A stretch of DNA of 42,060 nucleotides from Deltaproteobacteria bacterium (GTDB lineage: Bacteria > Myxococcota_A > UBA796 > JAFGLY01). How positions within the stretch are numbered: position 1 is the first letter of the stretch; every line of letters starts with the position of its first letter. Made by a program: the position numbers and the translations under genes. The stretch is from assembly GCA_016927815.1 (NCBI GenBank), contig JAFGLY010000047.1:1-42060 (forward strand), given 5' to 3'. Below, piece by piece: positions 4,300 through 19,197 of the stretch. A model generated the notes under the pieces. That model had not been told where the DNA came from. It did not search any database and saw nothing but the letters and a program-made list of their open reading frames with translations.

Positions 4300-5199
4300 A
4301 TGGCCCACACGGAACACCCCCGGTTCCTCTCCTGGGACGACACCCGGATCGCCTACGGGGTGCGCGGCGAACCGGCATCCGATCGCGTCTGCCTGTTCGT
4401 CAACGGGCTGTTCGGGACCGATGCCTGCTGGGCGTTTCTCCAGCAGGACCTGGCGATGGGGCATCGCCTCGTGACGTTCGATCTCCGCGGACACGGGGGC
4501 TCCGATCCGCCCGCGGATCCGGCCCACGTCACGGTGTCCGACGTCGCCCGGGACGCGAGGGCGCTCCTGGACCACCTCGGGGTCGAGCGCGCCGTCCTCT
4601 TCGGGACCTCCTACGGGGTCCAGGTGGCGCTGGAGTCCTGGCGCCTGTTCCCTGAGCGGATCGCCGGGCTGGTCCTGATCACCGGTGACTACGAGGATCC
4701 CCTGGCCACGTTCCGGCTCCTGGGCATCCCCCCCAGGGCCTGGCGAACGGCGGCGACCACCCTGGCCCGGCTCCCACCCCGCGCTACCCAAGCGACCTGG
4801 CATGCGGCTTTCCGCCTTCCGATCTGGCATGCCCTGGCGCGTCTCGCCCGTGCGACGCGCACCGACTCGAGCCAGATGCGGCCCTTCTACGACCACCAGA
4901 CCCGGATCCACGTGCCCACGGCCCTCCGCCTGGCCCTGGCTGCCACCGACCACTCGGCGGAGGATCTGCTGCCCGACGTCCGGATCCCCACGCTGGTGGT
5001 CGCCGGAGGGGAGGACCCCGTCACCCCCGCGTCCCGGGCAGCCGCTCTCCGGGATGCGATCCCCGGCGCCGCGTGGCTGGAGGTGCCCGAGGGCACCCAC
5101 ACCACGCTCATGGAGGCCCCGGAGCAGGTCAACCCCCGCGTGCTCGAGTTCCTCTCCGGGATCCGGTGGGAGGATCAGCCCCCCGAGGGTGGGGTGTAG
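4300..5199 (+). CDS. Alpha/beta-fold hydrolase
   Basis: A 299-residue hydrolase of the alpha/beta superfamily. The nucleophile elbow GTSYG puts the catalytic serine at 104, the acid is probably Asp239 in AGGEDPVTP, and the histidine is His267 in EGTHTTL. An oxyanion-hole region NGLFGTDACW and the strand-loop FDLRGHGGSD are also typical. There is no signal peptide. The start ATG 4300 has GGAG five bases upstream, so the longer open frame reaching back over the dCMP deaminase is rejected. A TACTCA hexamer at 4279-4284 could be part of a promoter. The substrate cannot be predicted. The 3' end overlaps the phosphorylase gene on the other strand by 25 bp. Confidence 0.9.
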   Translation: MAHTEHPRFLSWDDTRIAYGVRGEPASDRVCLFVNGLFGTDACWAFLQQDLAMGHRLVTFDLRGHGGSDPPADPAHVTVSDVARDARALLDHLGVERAVLFGTSYGVQVALESWRLFPERIAGLVLITGDYEDPLATFRLLGIPPRAWRTAATTLARLPPRATQATWHAAFRLPIWHALARLARATRTDSSQMRPFYDHQTRIHVPTALRLALAATDHSAEDLLPDVRIPTLVVAGGEDPVTPASRAAALRDAIPGAAWLEVPEGTHTTLMEAPEQVNPRVLEFLSGIRWEDQPPEGGV

Positions 5200-7262
5200 A
5201 TCCCGGCGTACTCCCGTACCATCCGGCGAGCGTCGTACTGGGGGAGGCACACGGCGATGCTCTGGCGCATGCGTTCCACCCACTCCAACGGGATCCCGGA
5301 CCCGTTGCGGTTCTGCCAGGCGGGGAGGACCTCGTCCTCGAGGGCATGGTAGAGGGCGCGGGCGTCTTCGGGGTCCTGCTCGCTCGTCTGCGGCCGGTGG
5401 AGGTCCGGCGGCCGGATGGCCCACCCGTGCGTGCCGTCCCACGCCTCTGCCCACCAGCCGTCCAGGATGGACAGGTTGAGTACCCCCTGGATCGCGGCCT
5501 TCTGGCCACTCGTGCCGCTGGCCTCGTAGGGCCGCCTGGGGTTGTTGAGCCACAGGTCGCAGCCCTGCGTGAGCATGCGCGCGGCCTTGAGGTTGTAGTT
5601 GGGCAGGAACAGGACCCGGCCCTGGAAGCGGGGATCCTCGCACCAGCGCACGATCTCGGACAGCAGGCTCTGGCCGCGCATGTCCGCGGGGTGAGCCTTG
5701 CCGCCGAACACGATCTGGACGCCCTCGTCCAGGATGCGCACGAGCCGATCCGGGTCGCTGAAGATGAGGTTGGCCCGCTTGTACAACGCGAATCGCCGTG
5801 CGAAGCCGATGGTGAGTGCCTCCGGGTTCAGACGGGGCAGTCCGCGGCCGACCAGCCACTCTACGAGCACCCGCCTGGCGGCCCGCCGCGCATCCCAGAG
5901 GGCCACGGCCGGGATCCTGCGGACCGCCTTGTGCCACCCCTCGGGATCCTGGAAGGCCGTATCCCAGATCGGGGCGTACCGGTCGAGCAGGGCGACGCAG
6001 GCCGGTGACATCCAGGTCTTGGGATGGACGCCGTTGGTGACGTGGCCGATCCGTGCCGGGGGCGGGGCGGGGGCCACCTGGGCCACCGGCGGGAGGGGTT
6101 GGCCGGTGTACAGGTCCTTCCACATCTCGCGGCTCACCTCGCCGTGGATCGCGGAGACGGCGTTGGCGGCGCGCGACATGCGGAGCGCCAGGATGGTGTT
6201 GCAGAGGGGCGCGCCCACGTCGCCAGGCCACACGCGGCCCAGGTCCATCACGAAGCCCGCGGGCAGGCTCGTGGCCTCCCGGTAGCCCGCCAGGTGCCCC
6301 TGGACCTGGTCCCAGGTGAACCGATCGTGGCCCGCCAGTACGGGGGTGTGCGTGGTGAACACGCACCGGCTCCGCGTCTCCTCCAGGGCGCGGTCCACGG
6401 GCACTCCTTGGGCCAGCGCCTCCCGGACGAGCTCCAGGGTGAGGAACGCCGCGTGGCCCTCGTTCATGTGGAACGTGACGGGGTCCAGGCCGAGCGCCCT
6501 TAAGAGTCGAACCCCTCCGATCCCCAGCAGGATCTCCTGGCCGAGACGGGTGTCGCTGGCCCCACCGTACAGGCGGCGACTGTACTGCTGGTGGTACCAG
6601 GTGGCCCCCGGCACGTTCGCGTCGAGCAGGAACAGCCGGACGCGGCCCACCTGCACCTCCCAGGCCTGCGCCAGGTAGGTGTGGTGGTTCTCGGGGACCT
6701 CCACGAAGAGGCGCTTTCCGTCGGGCCCAAGGACCGGCCGGAGCGGGAGGAGGTTCGGGTCGACCTTCCGGTAGACCTCGATCTGCTCGTTCCGCTCGAT
6801 CTTCTGGCGGAAGTACCCCTCCTGGTAGAACAGCCCGACGGCGACGAGCGGAAGGTCGAGGTCCGAGGCGCTCTTCAGGTGATCCCCCGCAAGCACGCCC
6901 AGGCCCCCCGCGTAGATGGGCAGGCACTCGTGGATGCCGTACTCCATGCAGAAGTAGGCCACGGGATGCTGCCGATCCGCGCCCGGGAGCATGGGTGGGG
7001 GGGGTCGATTCTCGGCGCGGAGCTGGTGCCACCGTCGGAGCACCTCCTCCATGTGCAAGCGAAAAACATCATTTTCGGAAAGATCCATCGCCCGGGCATA
7101 GGAGATGGACGCGAGCATGGCCACCGGGTTGTGGCCCGAGCGCGCCCACCCTTCCGGATCGACCTCATCGAACAGGGCGCGAGCGGACTCGTCCCACGAC
7201 CACCACAGGTCGTAGGCCAGGGTGGCGAGCGGTACCAAGGGTTCGGGGAGGCGGAGCTGCAT
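5175..7262 (-). CDS. glgP: Alpha-glucan (glycogen/maltodextrin) phosphorylase
   Basis: This GT35 enzyme releases glucose 1-phosphate from alpha-1,4-glucans with phosphate and PLP. From ATG 7262 it has 695 residues, fitting the shorter bacterial alpha-glucan phosphorylase group rather than the 800-plus-residue E. coli GlgP. The N-terminal domain begins with LATLAYDLWWSWDE, the signature start of that group. CMEYGIHECLPIYAGGLGVLAGDHLKSASD is fully present (residues in the 110-150 range). The PLP-lysine motif EASGTSGQKAA starts at 580, with Lys588 the Schiff-base residue. The frame is open upstream, but that sequence is antisense to the MFS gene. The ribosome site at 7262 is weak. It converges on the hydrolase and diverges from the transporter/thiamine operon. 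Confidence 0.95.
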   Translation of the reverse strand: MQLRLPEPLVPLATLAYDLWWSWDESARALFDEVDPEGWARSGHNPVAMLASISYARAMDLSENDVFRLHMEEVLRRWHQLRAENRPPPPMLPGADRQHPVAYFCMEYGIHECLPIYAGGLGVLAGDHLKSASDLDLPLVAVGLFYQEGYFRQKIERNEQIEVYRKVDPNLLPLRPVLGPDGKRLFVEVPENHHTYLAQAWEVQVGRVRLFLLDANVPGATWYHQQYSRRLYGGASDTRLGQEILLGIGGVRLLRALGLDPVTFHMNEGHAAFLTLELVREALAQGVPVDRALEETRSRCVFTTHTPVLAGHDRFTWDQVQGHLAGYREATSLPAGFVMDLGRVWPGDVGAPLCNTILALRMSRAANAVSAIHGEVSREMWKDLYTGQPLPPVAQVAPAPPPARIGHVTNGVHPKTWMSPACVALLDRYAPIWDTAFQDPEGWHKAVRRIPAVALWDARRAARRVLVEWLVGRGLPRLNPEALTIGFARRFALYKRANLIFSDPDRLVRILDEGVQIVFGGKAHPADMRGQSLLSEIVRWCEDPRFQGRVLFLPNYNLKAARMLTQGCDLWLNNPRRPYEASGTSGQKAAIQGVLNLSILDGWWAEAWDGTHGWAIRPPDLHRPQTSEQDPEDARALYHALEDEVLPAWQNRNGSGIPLEWVERMRQSIAVCLPQYDARRMVREYAGIYTPPSGG

Positions 7263-13663: not shown

Positions 13664-14415
13664 CCGGCGAGTCCTTCGCGCGCACGTCGCTCCTGCTCGG
13701 GCCAGAGGCCCTGGCACGGATCGAACGGGCGTTCGTGGTGGTGGTGGGCCTGGGCGCGGTGGGCTCCTTCGCGGTGGAGGCACTCGCCCGCGCCGGGGTG
13801 GGGCGCCTGCGCCTGGTGGACTTCGACACCGTACGAGCAAGCGACCTGAACCGCCAGATCCTCGCACTCCGGTCCACGTTGGGTCGCCCCAAGGTGGAGG
13901 TGGCGGCCCAACGCGTGGCCGACATCCACCCCGCCTGCCGCGTGGAGCCGCTGGGCCTGTTCGCGCATGCGGACACCGCAAGCCGGATCCTGGAGGGGCC
14001 TCCCGACGTCCTGGTCGATTGTATCGACGCGGTGGGGCCCAAGGTGGCCCTGCTGCTGGCGGCCGTGCGGGCACAGGTGGCCGCGGTGTCCTCCATGGGG
14101 GCGGCCTTGAGGCGAGACCCCGGGCTCGTCCGCACGGGCGACCTCTCCGAGACCCGCATCTGTCCGCTCGCCCACGCGGTGCGCAAGCGGCTGCACCGGG
14201 AGGGCGTACGGGAGGGCATCCGGTGCGTGTACTCCTTGGAGCGACCGGCGGATGCGGTGCGACCGGGGGACTGCGGGGAGCAGGGCCTCGAGCGCGGCCG
14301 CACCCGCACCCGGCTCGGCTCGCTGCCCACGATCCCGGGCATCTTCGGCCTGGCCGCCGCCGGGTCCGCGCTGGAGCTGCTCGCGTGCTTGCCTCCCGGG
14401 TTTTCGCGGGGATAG
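13660..14415 (+). CDS. tcdA: tRNA threonylcarbamoyladenosine dehydratase (E1-like)
   Basis: TcdA cyclises t6A at position 37 of ANN-decoding tRNAs to ct6A using ATP. The 251-residue protein has the E1/MoeB-type nucleotide fold: VVVGLGAVGSFAVEALARAG, then LVDFDTVRASDLNRQILAL, where the NRQ arginine contacts ATP, and KVEVAAQRVADIHP. The later ICPLAHAVRKRL and IRCVYSLERP segments, plus the C-terminal LGSLPTIPGIFGLAAA, match TcdA better than MoeB or ThiF. It starts at GTG 13660, overlapping the tatD stop. Both being nucleic-acid or tRNA related makes the pairing sensible, though they may simply be co-transcribed. Confidence 0.92.
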   Translation: MTGESFARTSLLLGPEALARIERAFVVVVGLGAVGSFAVEALARAGVGRLRLVDFDTVRASDLNRQILALRSTLGRPKVEVAAQRVADIHPACRVEPLGLFAHADTASRILEGPPDVLVDCIDAVGPKVALLLAAVRAQVAAVSSMGAALRRDPGLVRTGDLSETRICPLAHAVRKRLHREGVREGIRCVYSLERPADAVRPGDCGEQGLERGRTRTRLGSLPTIPGIFGLAAAGSALELLACLPPGFSRG

Positions 14416-14515
14416 ACCCCTTCGCGAGACTCCAGTTCGGGAGCCGAGGCGATCTGCCCCACAGTCGGGAGAGGATGGGGAGTGTCGCTCCGCCCCGTGG
14501 GCAGGATCGCAGGCC

Positions 14516-16870
14516 ATGGACACGCTCCCCACGCGGATGCTCCCCTTCGGACCTCGCCGCGCGGTCTATGTCGATGTCGCTCGGGACCTCGCGGCGCCCG
14601 TCCTCCCCGATGGCACCGTGGAGGCGTTCGAGGCGTTCGACCTCGCCTACCGAACGCTGTGCGGCATCCTCTACAACTATGTGCCCACCTCGGGCCACCC
14701 CGGAGGGAGCATCTCCTCGGGCCGCCACGTCGCGGGCATCCTCTTCTCCGGGCTCGACTACGACATCGGGGATCCGGAGCGCCCGGACGCGGACCTCCTC
14801 TCGTACGCCGCAGGCCACAAGGCCCTGGGGCTCTACGCGATGTGGGCGCTCCGCGACGAGATCGCCCGCATCGGCCGACCGGGCCTCCTGCCGGAGGATC
14901 CCCGATTCCGCTTGAGGCTCGAGGATCTTCTCGGTTTTCGGCGGAACCCGACCCAGAACACGCCGCTCTTCGAACGCCGGCGAGCCCGGCCCCTCGACGG
15001 CCACCCGACCCCGGCGACCCCGTTCGTGCGGCTCGCGACCGGCGCCTCGGGTGTGGGCATGGGGTCGAGCTTCGGGCTGGCCTTCGCAGCCCTGGACACC
15101 TGGGGAGGACACGCGCCCTATGTCCACGTCGCCGAGGGAGAGGGGGGCATGACTCCGGGGCGGGTCGCCGAGGCGTTCGCCCTGGCCTCCGCCGCGCGGT
15201 TGTGGAACCTGCGTGTCCACGTCGACTGGAACCAGGCCTCGATCGACTCGGACCGGGTCTGCCGCGAGGGCGACCGGCCGGGCGACTACGTCCAGTGGGA
15301 TCCGGTGGAATTCGCCTACCTCCACGACTGGAACGTGGTCTTCGTCGAGCAGGGCCACGACGTCCGACAGGTCCTGGCCGCCCTGGAGTGGACCCGGGCA
15401 CGTCGGAACGACCAGCCCACCGCGGTCGTGTACCGCACCACGAAGGGCTGGCGCTACGGCATCGAGGGCCGCAGGTCCCACGGCGCGGGGCACGGGTTCT
15501 GCTCGCCCGGCTTCCACACCTCGCTCGAGCCGTTCGAGCGTCGCTTCGGCGTGGCCTTCCCCCGGTACGACGGTCCGCCCGACCCGATCGCCGTCGAGCA
15601 GGCGTTCTGGGACACACTCGGGGTCCTCCGGGAGGCCTTGGAGGGCGAACGGGCGCTGTGCACGTGCTTCGCGGACCGTCTCGCCCAGGCCCGGACCCGT
15701 CTCGAGGCCGCCGGTCGCACCCGCCGTCCGGGCTGCCCGGACCTCGCCCGCGTGTACGCCGGCGGGGTCCGCCCCGACGAGATCCCCCCCTCGTGCACCT
15801 ACGCCGCCGGAGCGCAGGTGACGCTGCGCGGCGCTCTCGGGGACACGCTCCATCACCTCAACCGGATCTCGGGCGGCGGGTTCGTGGGTGCCAGCGCCGA
15901 TCTCCTCGAGTCCACGAGCCTCTCCCACCTCGCGAAGGGGTTCCCGGCCGGGTTCTTCGACGCGGTGTCCAATCCCGGGTCCCGCCTCGTCGCCTGCGGC
16001 GGCATCTGCGAGGACGCCATGGGCGCCTTCCTGTCGGGGGTCGCCTCGTACGGCACGCACGTCGGGGCAGGGTCCTCCTACGGCGCCTTCATCGCGGCGC
16101 TGGAACACGTGGCCGCACGCCTGCACGGCATCGGCCAGCAGGCTCGCCGCGACCTCACCGGTGAGCCCTTCCACCCCTTCCTGATCGTCTGCGGCCACGC
16201 GGGGCTCCAGACGGGCGAGGACGGCCCCACCCACGCGGATCCCCAGGCGCTCCAGCTCCTCCAGGAAAACTTTCCCCCCGGCGTCCTCGTCACGCTCACC
16301 CCGTGGGATCCGCAGGAGCTGTACCCGCTCACCGTCGCCGCGCTCCAGGCGCGCCCGGCCGTGGTGGCGCCCTTCGTGACGCGACCCCCCGAGACCGTCC
16401 TGGACCGCGAGAAGCTCGGGATCCCACCCGCCACGGCGGCCGTGCAGGGCCTGTACCCGCTGCGGCGCCTGCCGGGCGGAGCCCCCCGCCACGGCACCCT
16501 CGTGCTCCAGGGCAGCGGCGTCACGAACACGTTCCTCGCACAGGTCCTGCCGCGGATCGACGCGGAGGGTCTGAAGTTGGAGATCTTCTACGTGTCGAGC
16601 GCGGAGCTCTTCGACCGCCTGCCTGCGGACGTGCAGGAGCAGGTGTTCCCCGAGGCCCTGGCTTCGGAGGCCATGGGCATCACGGACTTCACGCTCTCCA
16701 CGATGTACCGATGGATCCCCTCCCGGGCAGGACGTGCGCGCACGCTCCATCCCTTCCGGACCGGGCGCTTCCCCGGTAGCGGACAGGCGCACAAGGTGGC
16801 CGAGGAGGCCGGGCTCCACGGCGAGGGGCAGTGGAGGGCCGTACGCGACTACGCACGCCGGAGGGGATGA
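14516..16870 (+). CDS. Transketolase-family enzyme with atypical cofactor motif
   Basis: From ATG 14516 the protein has 784 residues, over 100 more than a usual transketolase. Domain order is transketolase-like. The N-terminal TPP domain has TSGHPGGSISSGRH at about 62 and YAAGHKALGLYA (the SKGHA position). The cofactor/Mg motif starts at residues 208-210 as GEG rather than GDG and ends WNQ near 240 rather than NN. The central pyrimidine-binding domain has GHAGLQTGEDGPTHADPQ, and a C-terminal transketolase domain follows. The length recalls phosphoketolase, but phosphoketolase-specific motifs are absent. It lies 125 bp upstream of the phosphotransacylase-butyrate kinase fusion on the same strand. 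The real substrates may differ from xylulose 5-phosphate and ribose 5-phosphate. Confidence 0.82.
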   Translation: MDTLPTRMLPFGPRRAVYVDVARDLAAPVLPDGTVEAFEAFDLAYRTLCGILYNYVPTSGHPGGSISSGRHVAGILFSGLDYDIGDPERPDADLLSYAAGHKALGLYAMWALRDEIARIGRPGLLPEDPRFRLRLEDLLGFRRNPTQNTPLFERRRARPLDGHPTPATPFVRLATGASGVGMGSSFGLAFAALDTWGGHAPYVHVAEGEGGMTPGRVAEAFALASAARLWNLRVHVDWNQASIDSDRVCREGDRPGDYVQWDPVEFAYLHDWNVVFVEQGHDVRQVLAALEWTRARRNDQPTAVVYRTTKGWRYGIEGRRSHGAGHGFCSPGFHTSLEPFERRFGVAFPRYDGPPDPIAVEQAFWDTLGVLREALEGERALCTCFADRLAQARTRLEAAGRTRRPGCPDLARVYAGGVRPDEIPPSCTYAAGAQVTLRGALGDTLHHLNRISGGGFVGASADLLESTSLSHLAKGFPAGFFDAVSNPGSRLVACGGICEDAMGAFLSGVASYGTHVGAGSSYGAFIAALEHVAARLHGIGQQARRDLTGEPFHPFLIVCGHAGLQTGEDGPTHADPQALQLLQENFPPGVLVTLTPWDPQELYPLTVAALQARPAVVAPFVTRPPETVLDREKLGIPPATAAVQGLYPLRRLPGGAPRHGTLVLQGSGVTNTFLAQVLPRIDAEGLKLEIFYVSSAELFDRLPADVQEQVFPEALASEAMGITDFTLSTMYRWIPSRAGRARTLHPFRTGRFPGSGQAHKVAEEAGLHGEGQWRAVRDYARRRG

Positions 16871-16995
16871 GCGCCCGGCCAGACCCGCCCTCGGAGAGAC
16901 CCGGGGACCGCTGCGATTGCGCTCGCCGAAGGTCCCGCGCACCCGGGAGGACGGATAGGTCCATGTCGTTCCCTCCGTCTCCCCCGGAGACCTCC

Positions 16996-19197
16996 ATGAT
17001 CCGCCTGCTCCCGCTCCTCGAGGACCAGATCCGGGCCATCGCCCGGCCCAAGCCGACCCTCGTGTTCCCGGAGTCGTCCGATCCGCGCATCCTCTCGGCC
17101 ACCTCCCACCTGACGGGCCTGGCCAACGTGGTCCTGGTGGGGACGACCCGTGAAGAGGTCCGGCGCAGCATCGAGCAGTCCAACCTCCCGCTCAAGGGCT
17201 CGGTCAAGCAGTTCCTGGGCTCGGTCCGCTTCCTGCGTCCCAGCGACGAACCCGCGCTGTGCGAGGCGTTCCACGAGGCCTTCTTCGAGGCCTCCGAGGG
17301 CAAGCGCTGGGCCGTGCCCTACGACGTCGCGGGCACCCTCGTCCGGGAGCCGGTCATGTTCTCCTGCATGGCCGTGCGGCTGGGGTACGCGGACGCGGTC
17401 CTGGGGGGCGTGGCCCATGCGTCCCGCGACTTCTTCCGCCCGGCCCTCCGCCTCCTGCACACCGACCAGGTGGCCTTCGAGGTCGGCCTGTTCTCCCTTC
17501 CCGACGAGCACCCGAGCGACATCTACCAGAAGAACATCGTGGCCTTCGCCGACGTGGCCATCAACCCGGACCCCACACCGCAGGAGTTGGCCGAGATCGC
17601 CGTCGGTTCCTGCAAGATCGTCCGCGACCTGATCCCTCAGGACATCCTTCCACACGTCAACGGGGCGATCCTGTCCTACTCCACACGCGGATCCGCGTCG
17701 GGCGAGTCCGTGATGCGCATCCGGGAGGCGGGCCAGCTCGTTCCCGGGCTCCTCGAGCGCCTCGTGGCCCAGGACCCCGTGTACCAGACCATCCGGATCG
17801 AGGCCGAGCTGCAGATCTCCTGCGCCATCTCCATCGCCGCGGCCCAGTCCAAGCTGCGCGATGCCCTGAACAACCCCGACTCTCCGGTGGGCCGGGCCAA
17901 CGTCCTCATCCTGCCGTCGCTCGACTCCGGCAACCTGATGTACCACCTCTACGCCACGCGCTACCCGCAGGCGGACAAGGTCTTGATGGTGGGCGGCATG
18001 GGGGGCAGGGTGCTGGACTTCTCCCGGAGCGCCTCGGTGGAGGACGTGACCCTGGGCGGCGCGGGCACGGTCCTGCGCCTCAAGCGCAGGGCCGATTGGA
18101 GGGGCACACCTCAGCCGGCCTTCTTCCCGAACCACCGCATCCTGGTCATCAACCCCGGCTCCACGAGCACCCGCCTCGCGCTCTTCGAGGGCGAGGCTCG
18201 CATCTTCGAGCAGGAGGTCCACCACCCCGCGGACGCGATCGCGGCGTGCGCCACCATCCAGGGCCAGCTTCCCTTGCGGCGCGCCGTCCTGGAACGCTTC
18301 CTGGCCGACAACGGCGTGGACCTGGAGTCCATCGATGCCTTCGTGGGCCGCGGAGGCCTCGTGCGCCCGGTGGTGTCGGGCACCTACACCGTGAACGAGA
18401 CCATGCTCGCGGATCTCGCGGCCGCCCGGTACGGCGAGCACGCCTCCAACCTCGGTGCGTCGCTGGCCCACGCGCTGGCCGCGCCCCGAGGCAAGCAGGC
18501 ATTCATCGTGGATCCCGTCGTCACCGACGAGATGGACGAGGTGGCCCACCTGACGGGCCTGGACGGCTTCCCTCGTCGGGCCGTCTGGCACGCGCTGTCC
18601 CAGAAGGCGGTCGCCCGGCAGTACGCCGACGAGCAACTCACCGACTACGAGGACCTCAACCTCGTCGTGGCGCACCTCGGAGGGGGCATCTCGGTCGGGG
18701 TGCACCACCAGGGACGGGTGACCTGGGTCTCCAACGGCCTGGAGGAGGGGCCCATGAGCGCCGAGCGGACCGGCACCCTGCCCAACGACGTGGTCGTGGA
18801 TCTCTGCCTCCACCGCGATCTCTCCGAAAAGGAGGTCCGACGCCGGCTCGTGGGCCAGGGGGGGCTCGTGTCCCACCTGGGCACCTCGGATCTCCGGGAG
18901 GTGGAGCGACGCGTGGACGCGGGAGAACCCAAGGCGGCCCTGGTGTGGGAGAAGCTGTGCCAGGAGGTGGCCTCCACGATCGCGTCCTGCAGTACCCGCT
19001 TCGGGGGTGAGCGTGTGGATCGCGTCATCCTCACGGGCGGCATGACCCGCTCGAGACGCCTGGTGACCCGCGTCACGACGCTCCTCCGTGCGGTCCCCGT
19101 CGGGGTCACCGTGTACCCCGGCGAGCTGGAGGGCGAGGCCCTCAAGGAGGGCGCCGTGCGCGTGCTCCGGGGGCAGGAAACCCCACTCGAGTACTGA
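16996..19197 (+). CDS. Fused phosphotransacylase (Pta/Ptb) - butyrate kinase
   Basis: One 733-residue chain contains two enzymes that are normally separate. Residues 1 to about 370 are a phosphate acetyl/butyryltransferase, with TLVFPESSDPRILSA, LSYSTRGSASGES, EAELQISCAIS and RANVLILPSLDSGNLMYHL. From about 379 an acetokinase-family domain begins with ILVINPGSTSTRLALFEG, the butyrate-kinase form of the N-terminal phosphate loop. It continues with AHLGGGISVGVHHQGRV and SNGLEEGPMSAERTGTLP and is about 355 residues, full length for Buk. Together they would interconvert acyl-CoA and carboxylic acid with ATP made or used. ATG 16996 has GGAG six bases upstream; ATG 16963 in frame is the alternative. 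No stop or frameshift separates the halves. Confidence 0.93.
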   Translation: MIRLLPLLEDQIRAIARPKPTLVFPESSDPRILSATSHLTGLANVVLVGTTREEVRRSIEQSNLPLKGSVKQFLGSVRFLRPSDEPALCEAFHEAFFEASEGKRWAVPYDVAGTLVREPVMFSCMAVRLGYADAVLGGVAHASRDFFRPALRLLHTDQVAFEVGLFSLPDEHPSDIYQKNIVAFADVAINPDPTPQELAEIAVGSCKIVRDLIPQDILPHVNGAILSYSTRGSASGESVMRIREAGQLVPGLLERLVAQDPVYQTIRIEAELQISCAISIAAAQSKLRDALNNPDSPVGRANVLILPSLDSGNLMYHLYATRYPQADKVLMVGGMGGRVLDFSRSASVEDVTLGGAGTVLRLKRRADWRGTPQPAFFPNHRILVINPGSTSTRLALFEGEARIFEQEVHHPADAIAACATIQGQLPLRRAVLERFLADNGVDLESIDAFVGRGGLVRPVVSGTYTVNETMLADLAAARYGEHASNLGASLAHALAAPRGKQAFIVDPVVTDEMDEVAHLTGLDGFPRRAVWHALSQKAVARQYADEQLTDYEDLNLVVAHLGGGISVGVHHQGRVTWVSNGLEEGPMSAERTGTLPNDVVVDLCLHRDLSEKEVRRRLVGQGGLVSHLGTSDLREVERRVDAGEPKAALVWEKLCQEVASTIASCSTRFGGERVDRVILTGGMTRSRRLVTRVTTLLRAVPVGVTVYPGELEGEALKEGAVRVLRGQETPLEY

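Follow-up and report, generated by a model that had tools for sequence, protein, structure and literature searches.

The Ptb–Buk and Pta–AckA pathways convert acyl-CoA to fatty acid and ATP in two successive steps, each encoded by a gene of its own. Buk-family kinases act as a rule on C4–C5 acids. The PTA active site has been dissected by mutagenesis. In the Treponema Pta, alanine substitution of Ser, Arg and Asp leaves 0.3%, 0.07% and 14% of the activity, respectively (PMC10194888). In the Porphyromonas enzyme (PgPta), mutation of the equivalents of Asp307, Ser309 or Arg310 abolishes all activity and mutation of the equivalents of Arg87 and Arg133 has moderate effects (PMC6461089; numbering of the Methanosarcina Pta, MtPta). 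A PTA domain is also found in the hybrid malic enzymes (MaeB), where it serves as a sensor (PMC7902834).

The gene described here lies in a 42,060-nucleotide stretch of DNA (the window; contig JAFGLY010000047.1 of a Deltaproteobacteria bacterium, Myxococcota_A). It comprises positions 16996..19197 of the forward strand and encodes a protein of 733 residues. The protein has the same two chemistries and domain families as the Ptb–Buk and Pta–AckA pathways, but in one chain, and it pairs a Pta-type, not a Ptb-type, domain with a butyrate-type kinase. As in MaeB, the PTA domain is fused to a metabolic enzyme; however, it is C-terminal in MaeB and N-terminal in the window, where the partner is an acylate kinase. 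Judged by its residues, we consider it fairly probable that the window protein is a Pta-type phosphotransacylase and butyrate-type acylate kinase, probably active in both halves, and that the PTA half of the other branch of the family is likely regulatory.

Layout of the fusion protein

The frame opens with an ATG at 16996, runs unbroken for 733 codons and ends with a stop codon at 19195–19197. A Shine–Dalgarno-like GGAG (16986..16989, forward strand) is positioned 7–10 bases 5' of the ATG. The sister protein, a full-length relative with 67% identity in the one other genome of the window's family examined (G001), has an identical start residue. The first-pass annotation, made from the sequence alone, had proposed an uninterrupted frame joining two complete domains, and the open frame and the PTA_PTB and butyrate kinase matches bear this out.

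The PTA domain (17038..18051, residues 15–352) matches Pfam PF01515 with 150.5 bits against a gathering cut-off of 24, as well as Pta sequences in the PDB. The Pta and EutD models of NCBIfam score 140–148 bits and miss their cut-offs of about 310; in particular, the Pta equivalog model TIGR00651 scores 140 against 311. No Ptb model, TIGR02706 included, is among the NCBIfam matches of the fusion. The domain is thus more Pta-like than Ptb-like, as the annotation had it.

The butyrate kinase domain (18136..19194, from about residue 380/381 to 733) passes the equivalog cut-off of TIGR02707 over the whole domain (398 bits against 289, residues 381–730), which upholds its earlier assignment to the butyrate-kinase type; Pfam places an Acetate_kinase domain at residues 527–690. 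The ASKHA acylate-kinase motifs INPGSTST, RGG, HLGGG and ER(T/S)G are intact, and the motif residues N386, R452, H560 and R591 are invariant. Thermotoga butyrate kinase 2 (PDB 1saz and 1x9j) aligns with the kinase half over its whole length (300 bits) and is among the best fold matches; unlike the window protein, it is a stand-alone enzyme. In an AlphaFold model of the fusion, built from 38 sequences (pLDDT 84, pTM 0.78), one half matches butyrate kinase structures and the other the PTA domains of Pta and MaeB in Foldseek searches.

The two domains are connected by a linker (18052..18135, residues 353–380). Its residues W368, T371-P372 and F376-F377 are kept across both classes of fusion described below, which speaks for a single origin of the fusion.

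Occurrence of the fusion

Beyond the window and the sister genome, the fusion is absent from the other 69 genomes of the window's class. It is present in 10 of the 379 genomes searched of the phylum, and the other nine proteins are 39–67% identical to that of the window. When 84,980 species genomes were scanned with an alignment, 75 fusion loci were recovered, whereas a single-sequence scan of genome contigs gave no match. The holders are Geothrix and other Holophagaceae, other Acidobacteriota, Spirochaetales, Elusimicrobia, UBP9 and Myxococcota. The whole chain is in one frame in nearly all loci, and a few are interrupted by contig ends. No full-length fusion is present in the plasmid collection.

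The window's genome (G000; 97% complete) is a draft in 216 contigs, and an assembly or sequencing artefact might in principle have joined two genes. However, the sister genome joins the two domains at the same point through a similar linker, and the fusion recurs in about 80 independent genome records of Acidobacteriota (including Geothrix isolates), Myxococcota, Spirochaetota and Elusimicrobiota; this recurrence refutes an artefact, the probability of which we regard as negligible. A frameshift or hidden stop near position 18100, which the annotation had named as a way for the fusion to be spurious, is likewise excluded in practice. GC3 is even across the junction of the PTA and kinase parts. 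Since it recurs full length across phyla, the fusion is real, old and common. A fusion already common and characterised had been named in the annotation as a possible refutation: it is common across several phyla and not unique to this genome, but a literature search found no paper describing it.

Two classes of PTA active site

When 76 fusions are aligned to the Methanosarcina Pta, the catalytic pair Ser309-Arg310 is missing in 74. The two exceptions are the window protein (Ser343-Arg344; 18022..18027) and its sister. The Ser309 position holds Ser in 3 of the 76 sequences and Ala or Pro in the remaining 73; the Arg310 position holds Arg in 7 and another residue in 69. Substitutions at two further positions are nearly as general, with Gln244 replaced by Lys in 73 and Lys257 by Tyr in 72 of the 76, and both are retained in the window (Gln273, 17812..17814; Lys287, 17854..17856) and in G001. 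Asp316 (Asp350 in the window; 18043..18045), Asn279 and Arg133 are retained in all 76 fusions, Tyr282 and Asp307 in most, and much of the CoA site is retained in the 74 without the pair.

A control panel places these residues in context. The window protein and its sister are identical to canonical Pta at ten positions (R133, E242, Q244, K257, N279, Y282, D307, S309, R310 and D316), of which the Glu242 position is one where some canonical Ptas themselves deviate. The other fusions checked read REKYNYD[A/P]MD at the same positions. Stand-alone Ptbs retain Lys257 and the Ser-Arg pair. MaeB-like PTA domains have lost S309, R310 and K257 (R310 is kept in one outlying sequence); they resemble most fusions in lacking Ser309 and Arg310, both of which the window protein keeps.

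Compared with the Methanosarcina, Porphyromonas and Treponema Ptas (PDB 1qzt, 6iow and 8fir), the window domain has the same fold and the same catalytic Ser, Arg and Asp. Unlike them, it falls below the equivalog cut-off and lacks Arg87 (Ser in the window), Lys283 (His) and Gly295-Pro296 (a gap or other residues), all of which are invariant in 14 of 14 canonical Ptas checked. The loss of Arg87, Lys283 and Gly295 is common to the window and the degenerate fusions.

Separate Ptb genes beside the other fusions

In 42 of the 74 other records, a separate Ptb gene with an intact Ser-Arg pair is located near the fusion, within the stretch examined per record. In 15 of the 42 it is on the strand of the fusion, often directly downstream; in G133 and G254 it follows the fusion immediately. 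The loss of Ser309 and Arg310, together with the separate Ptb nearby, indicates that the PTA half of most fusions is probably no transacylase. On the same two grounds, the proposal that the fusion exists to channel the acyl phosphate finds no support as a general explanation.

By analogy with the hybrid malic enzymes, the PTA half of the 74 other fusions is probably a dead, acyl-CoA-sensing domain. In this branch (Acidobacteriota, Spirochaetota, Elusimicrobiota and other Myxococcota), the PTA domain has lost its catalytic Ser and Arg and most likely came to regulate the kinase in response to acyl-CoA, and a separate Ptb would supply the acyl phosphate. This reading suggests that in Geothrix and related anaerobes acyl-CoA may directly control the acylate kinases that yield ATP. 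It also suggests that most fusions would be misannotated if called 'bifunctional' from their domain content.

At one locus (L115), a subunit resembling 2-oxoacid:ferredoxin oxidoreductases (TPP_enzyme_C and 4Fe-4S; 4372-5349, reverse strand) is encoded about 3.5 kb from the pair of fusion and ptb, a hint that the acyl-CoA may derive from amino-acid fermentation.

Conservation and phylogeny

The window protein and its sister are 71% identical in the PTA half and 63% in the kinase half. This order is reversed in the other fusions: of 630 pairs, 614 are less conserved in the PTA domain than in the kinase, and 16 are more conserved there. Rooted on Pta and MaeB sequences, the PTA tree splits the fusions into the window pair on one side and all the rest on the other, and the branch leading to the rest is 1.34 long against 0.54 for the window pair. 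The two corresponding branches of the kinase tree are similar (0.63 and 0.78). By these residues and this topology, the window pair has kept a complete catalytic set, and in its sister lineage the corresponding PTA domain appears to have turned into a sensor; the two branches form a single fusion family.

Support for the whole fusion clade in the kinase tree is only 84. In AU tests, a tree that places the window kinase beside the stand-alone Buk of its own genome is less likely but is not rejected (p 0.133). Two stand-alone butyrate kinases from one genus (L033 and L034, of G138 and G200) branch inside the fusion clade. It is likely, not proven, that the PTA domain was lost secondarily in this genus, since a kinase clade of fusions only, without these two, is retained (p-AU 0.093).

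A tentative account, somewhat short of an even chance in our estimate, is that a Pta and an acylate kinase were fused once, in ancient times, and that the product survives complete in one Myxococcota family, as an acyl-CoA-sensing kinase in several phyla and as a lone kinase in one genus, a transition from bifunctional to allosteric enzyme. If true, the PTA fold would have been recruited as a sensor twice independently, here and in the hybrid malic enzymes. Since versions with a complete and with a lost active site coexist, the fusion offers a test case for the conversion of an enzyme domain into a sensor.

Function of the window fusion

In the proposed mechanism, the N-terminal domain would convert acyl-CoA and inorganic phosphate to acyl phosphate and CoA, and the C-terminal domain would convert acyl phosphate and ADP to fatty acid and ATP, or the reverse. 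Bifunctionality is plausible because, on paper, each half has an intact active site.

Besides the fusion, the genome of the window has a single PTA_PTB gene, which is the Ptb of a separate ptb–buk pair on contig 42 (L002). No canonical Pta was found in it; as the other PTA_PTB gene is a Ptb, the fusion is the only Pta-type candidate found in this genome. Because of the ptb–buk pair, the main route may be another than the fusion. Phosphoketolase was considered as a source of acyl phosphate and rejected, as none was found in the genome.

In favour of an active PTA half are the full Pta signature, Q244 and K257 included, in both members of the window pair, and a PTA half under stronger constraint than the kinase half. 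Against it, the equivalog cut-off for Pta is missed and the intact signature occurs in two sequences only. The main doubt comes from the missing Arg87, Lys283 and Gly295-Pro296, which leave open a sensor role here too: the window domain could already be a non-catalytic acyl-CoA sensor, with Ser343 and Arg344 there for ligand binding or by chance. Such a sensor would agree with the degeneration of the PTA half in all other fusions, with the losses shared with them, with the MaeB precedent (PMC7902834) and with the presence of the separate Ptb–Buk pair; set against the complete and constrained catalytic set, we rate it as unlikely, though a serious competitor.

Both halves could also be active with no acyl phosphate handed over. 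The acetyl phosphate made by the PTA half would then be used elsewhere, for instance by a separate acetate kinase, and the kinase half would act on longer or branched acyl phosphates. The Pta-like first and Buk-like second domains would fit this arrangement, as would a genome with a full acetate kinase in which neither canonical Pta nor phosphoketolase was found. However, that the two halves are fused at all speaks for a shared reaction, and the window protein differs from acetyl-specific Pta at the acyl-phosphate pocket positions MtPta Y294 and I297. We regard separate reactions as improbable and favour the two-step enzyme proposed above.

Gene neighbourhood and other acylate kinases

A transketolase-like gene (14252-16870) is located directly upstream of the fusion in the window. 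It scores 125 bits against an equivalog cut-off of 488 and was not found beside the fusion of the sister genome. The window neighbours are this gene, a sulfatase, a diacylglycerol kinase and GTP cyclohydrolase II; those in G001 are TANGO2, a mechanosensitive channel, PALP and ThrE. Only a TatD-like ORF is common to both. Genomic context was considered as an indication of which acyl group is handled and was rejected, as the neighbours in the two genomes share no pathway.

The separate ptb and buk genes (L002:1495-4248, reverse strand of contig 42) are in the same phase with a single TAG between them, an arrangement from which a fusion could easily arise.

The acetate kinase frame of the sister genome, at 405 residues, has no room for a cyclic-nucleotide-binding domain. 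In the window's genome, an acetate kinase (TIGR00016, 441 bits; L144:9728-12208, forward strand of contig 53) is in frame with an N-terminal domain of this kind (PF00027), and is thus a second acylate kinase of this genome joined to a ligand-binding domain.
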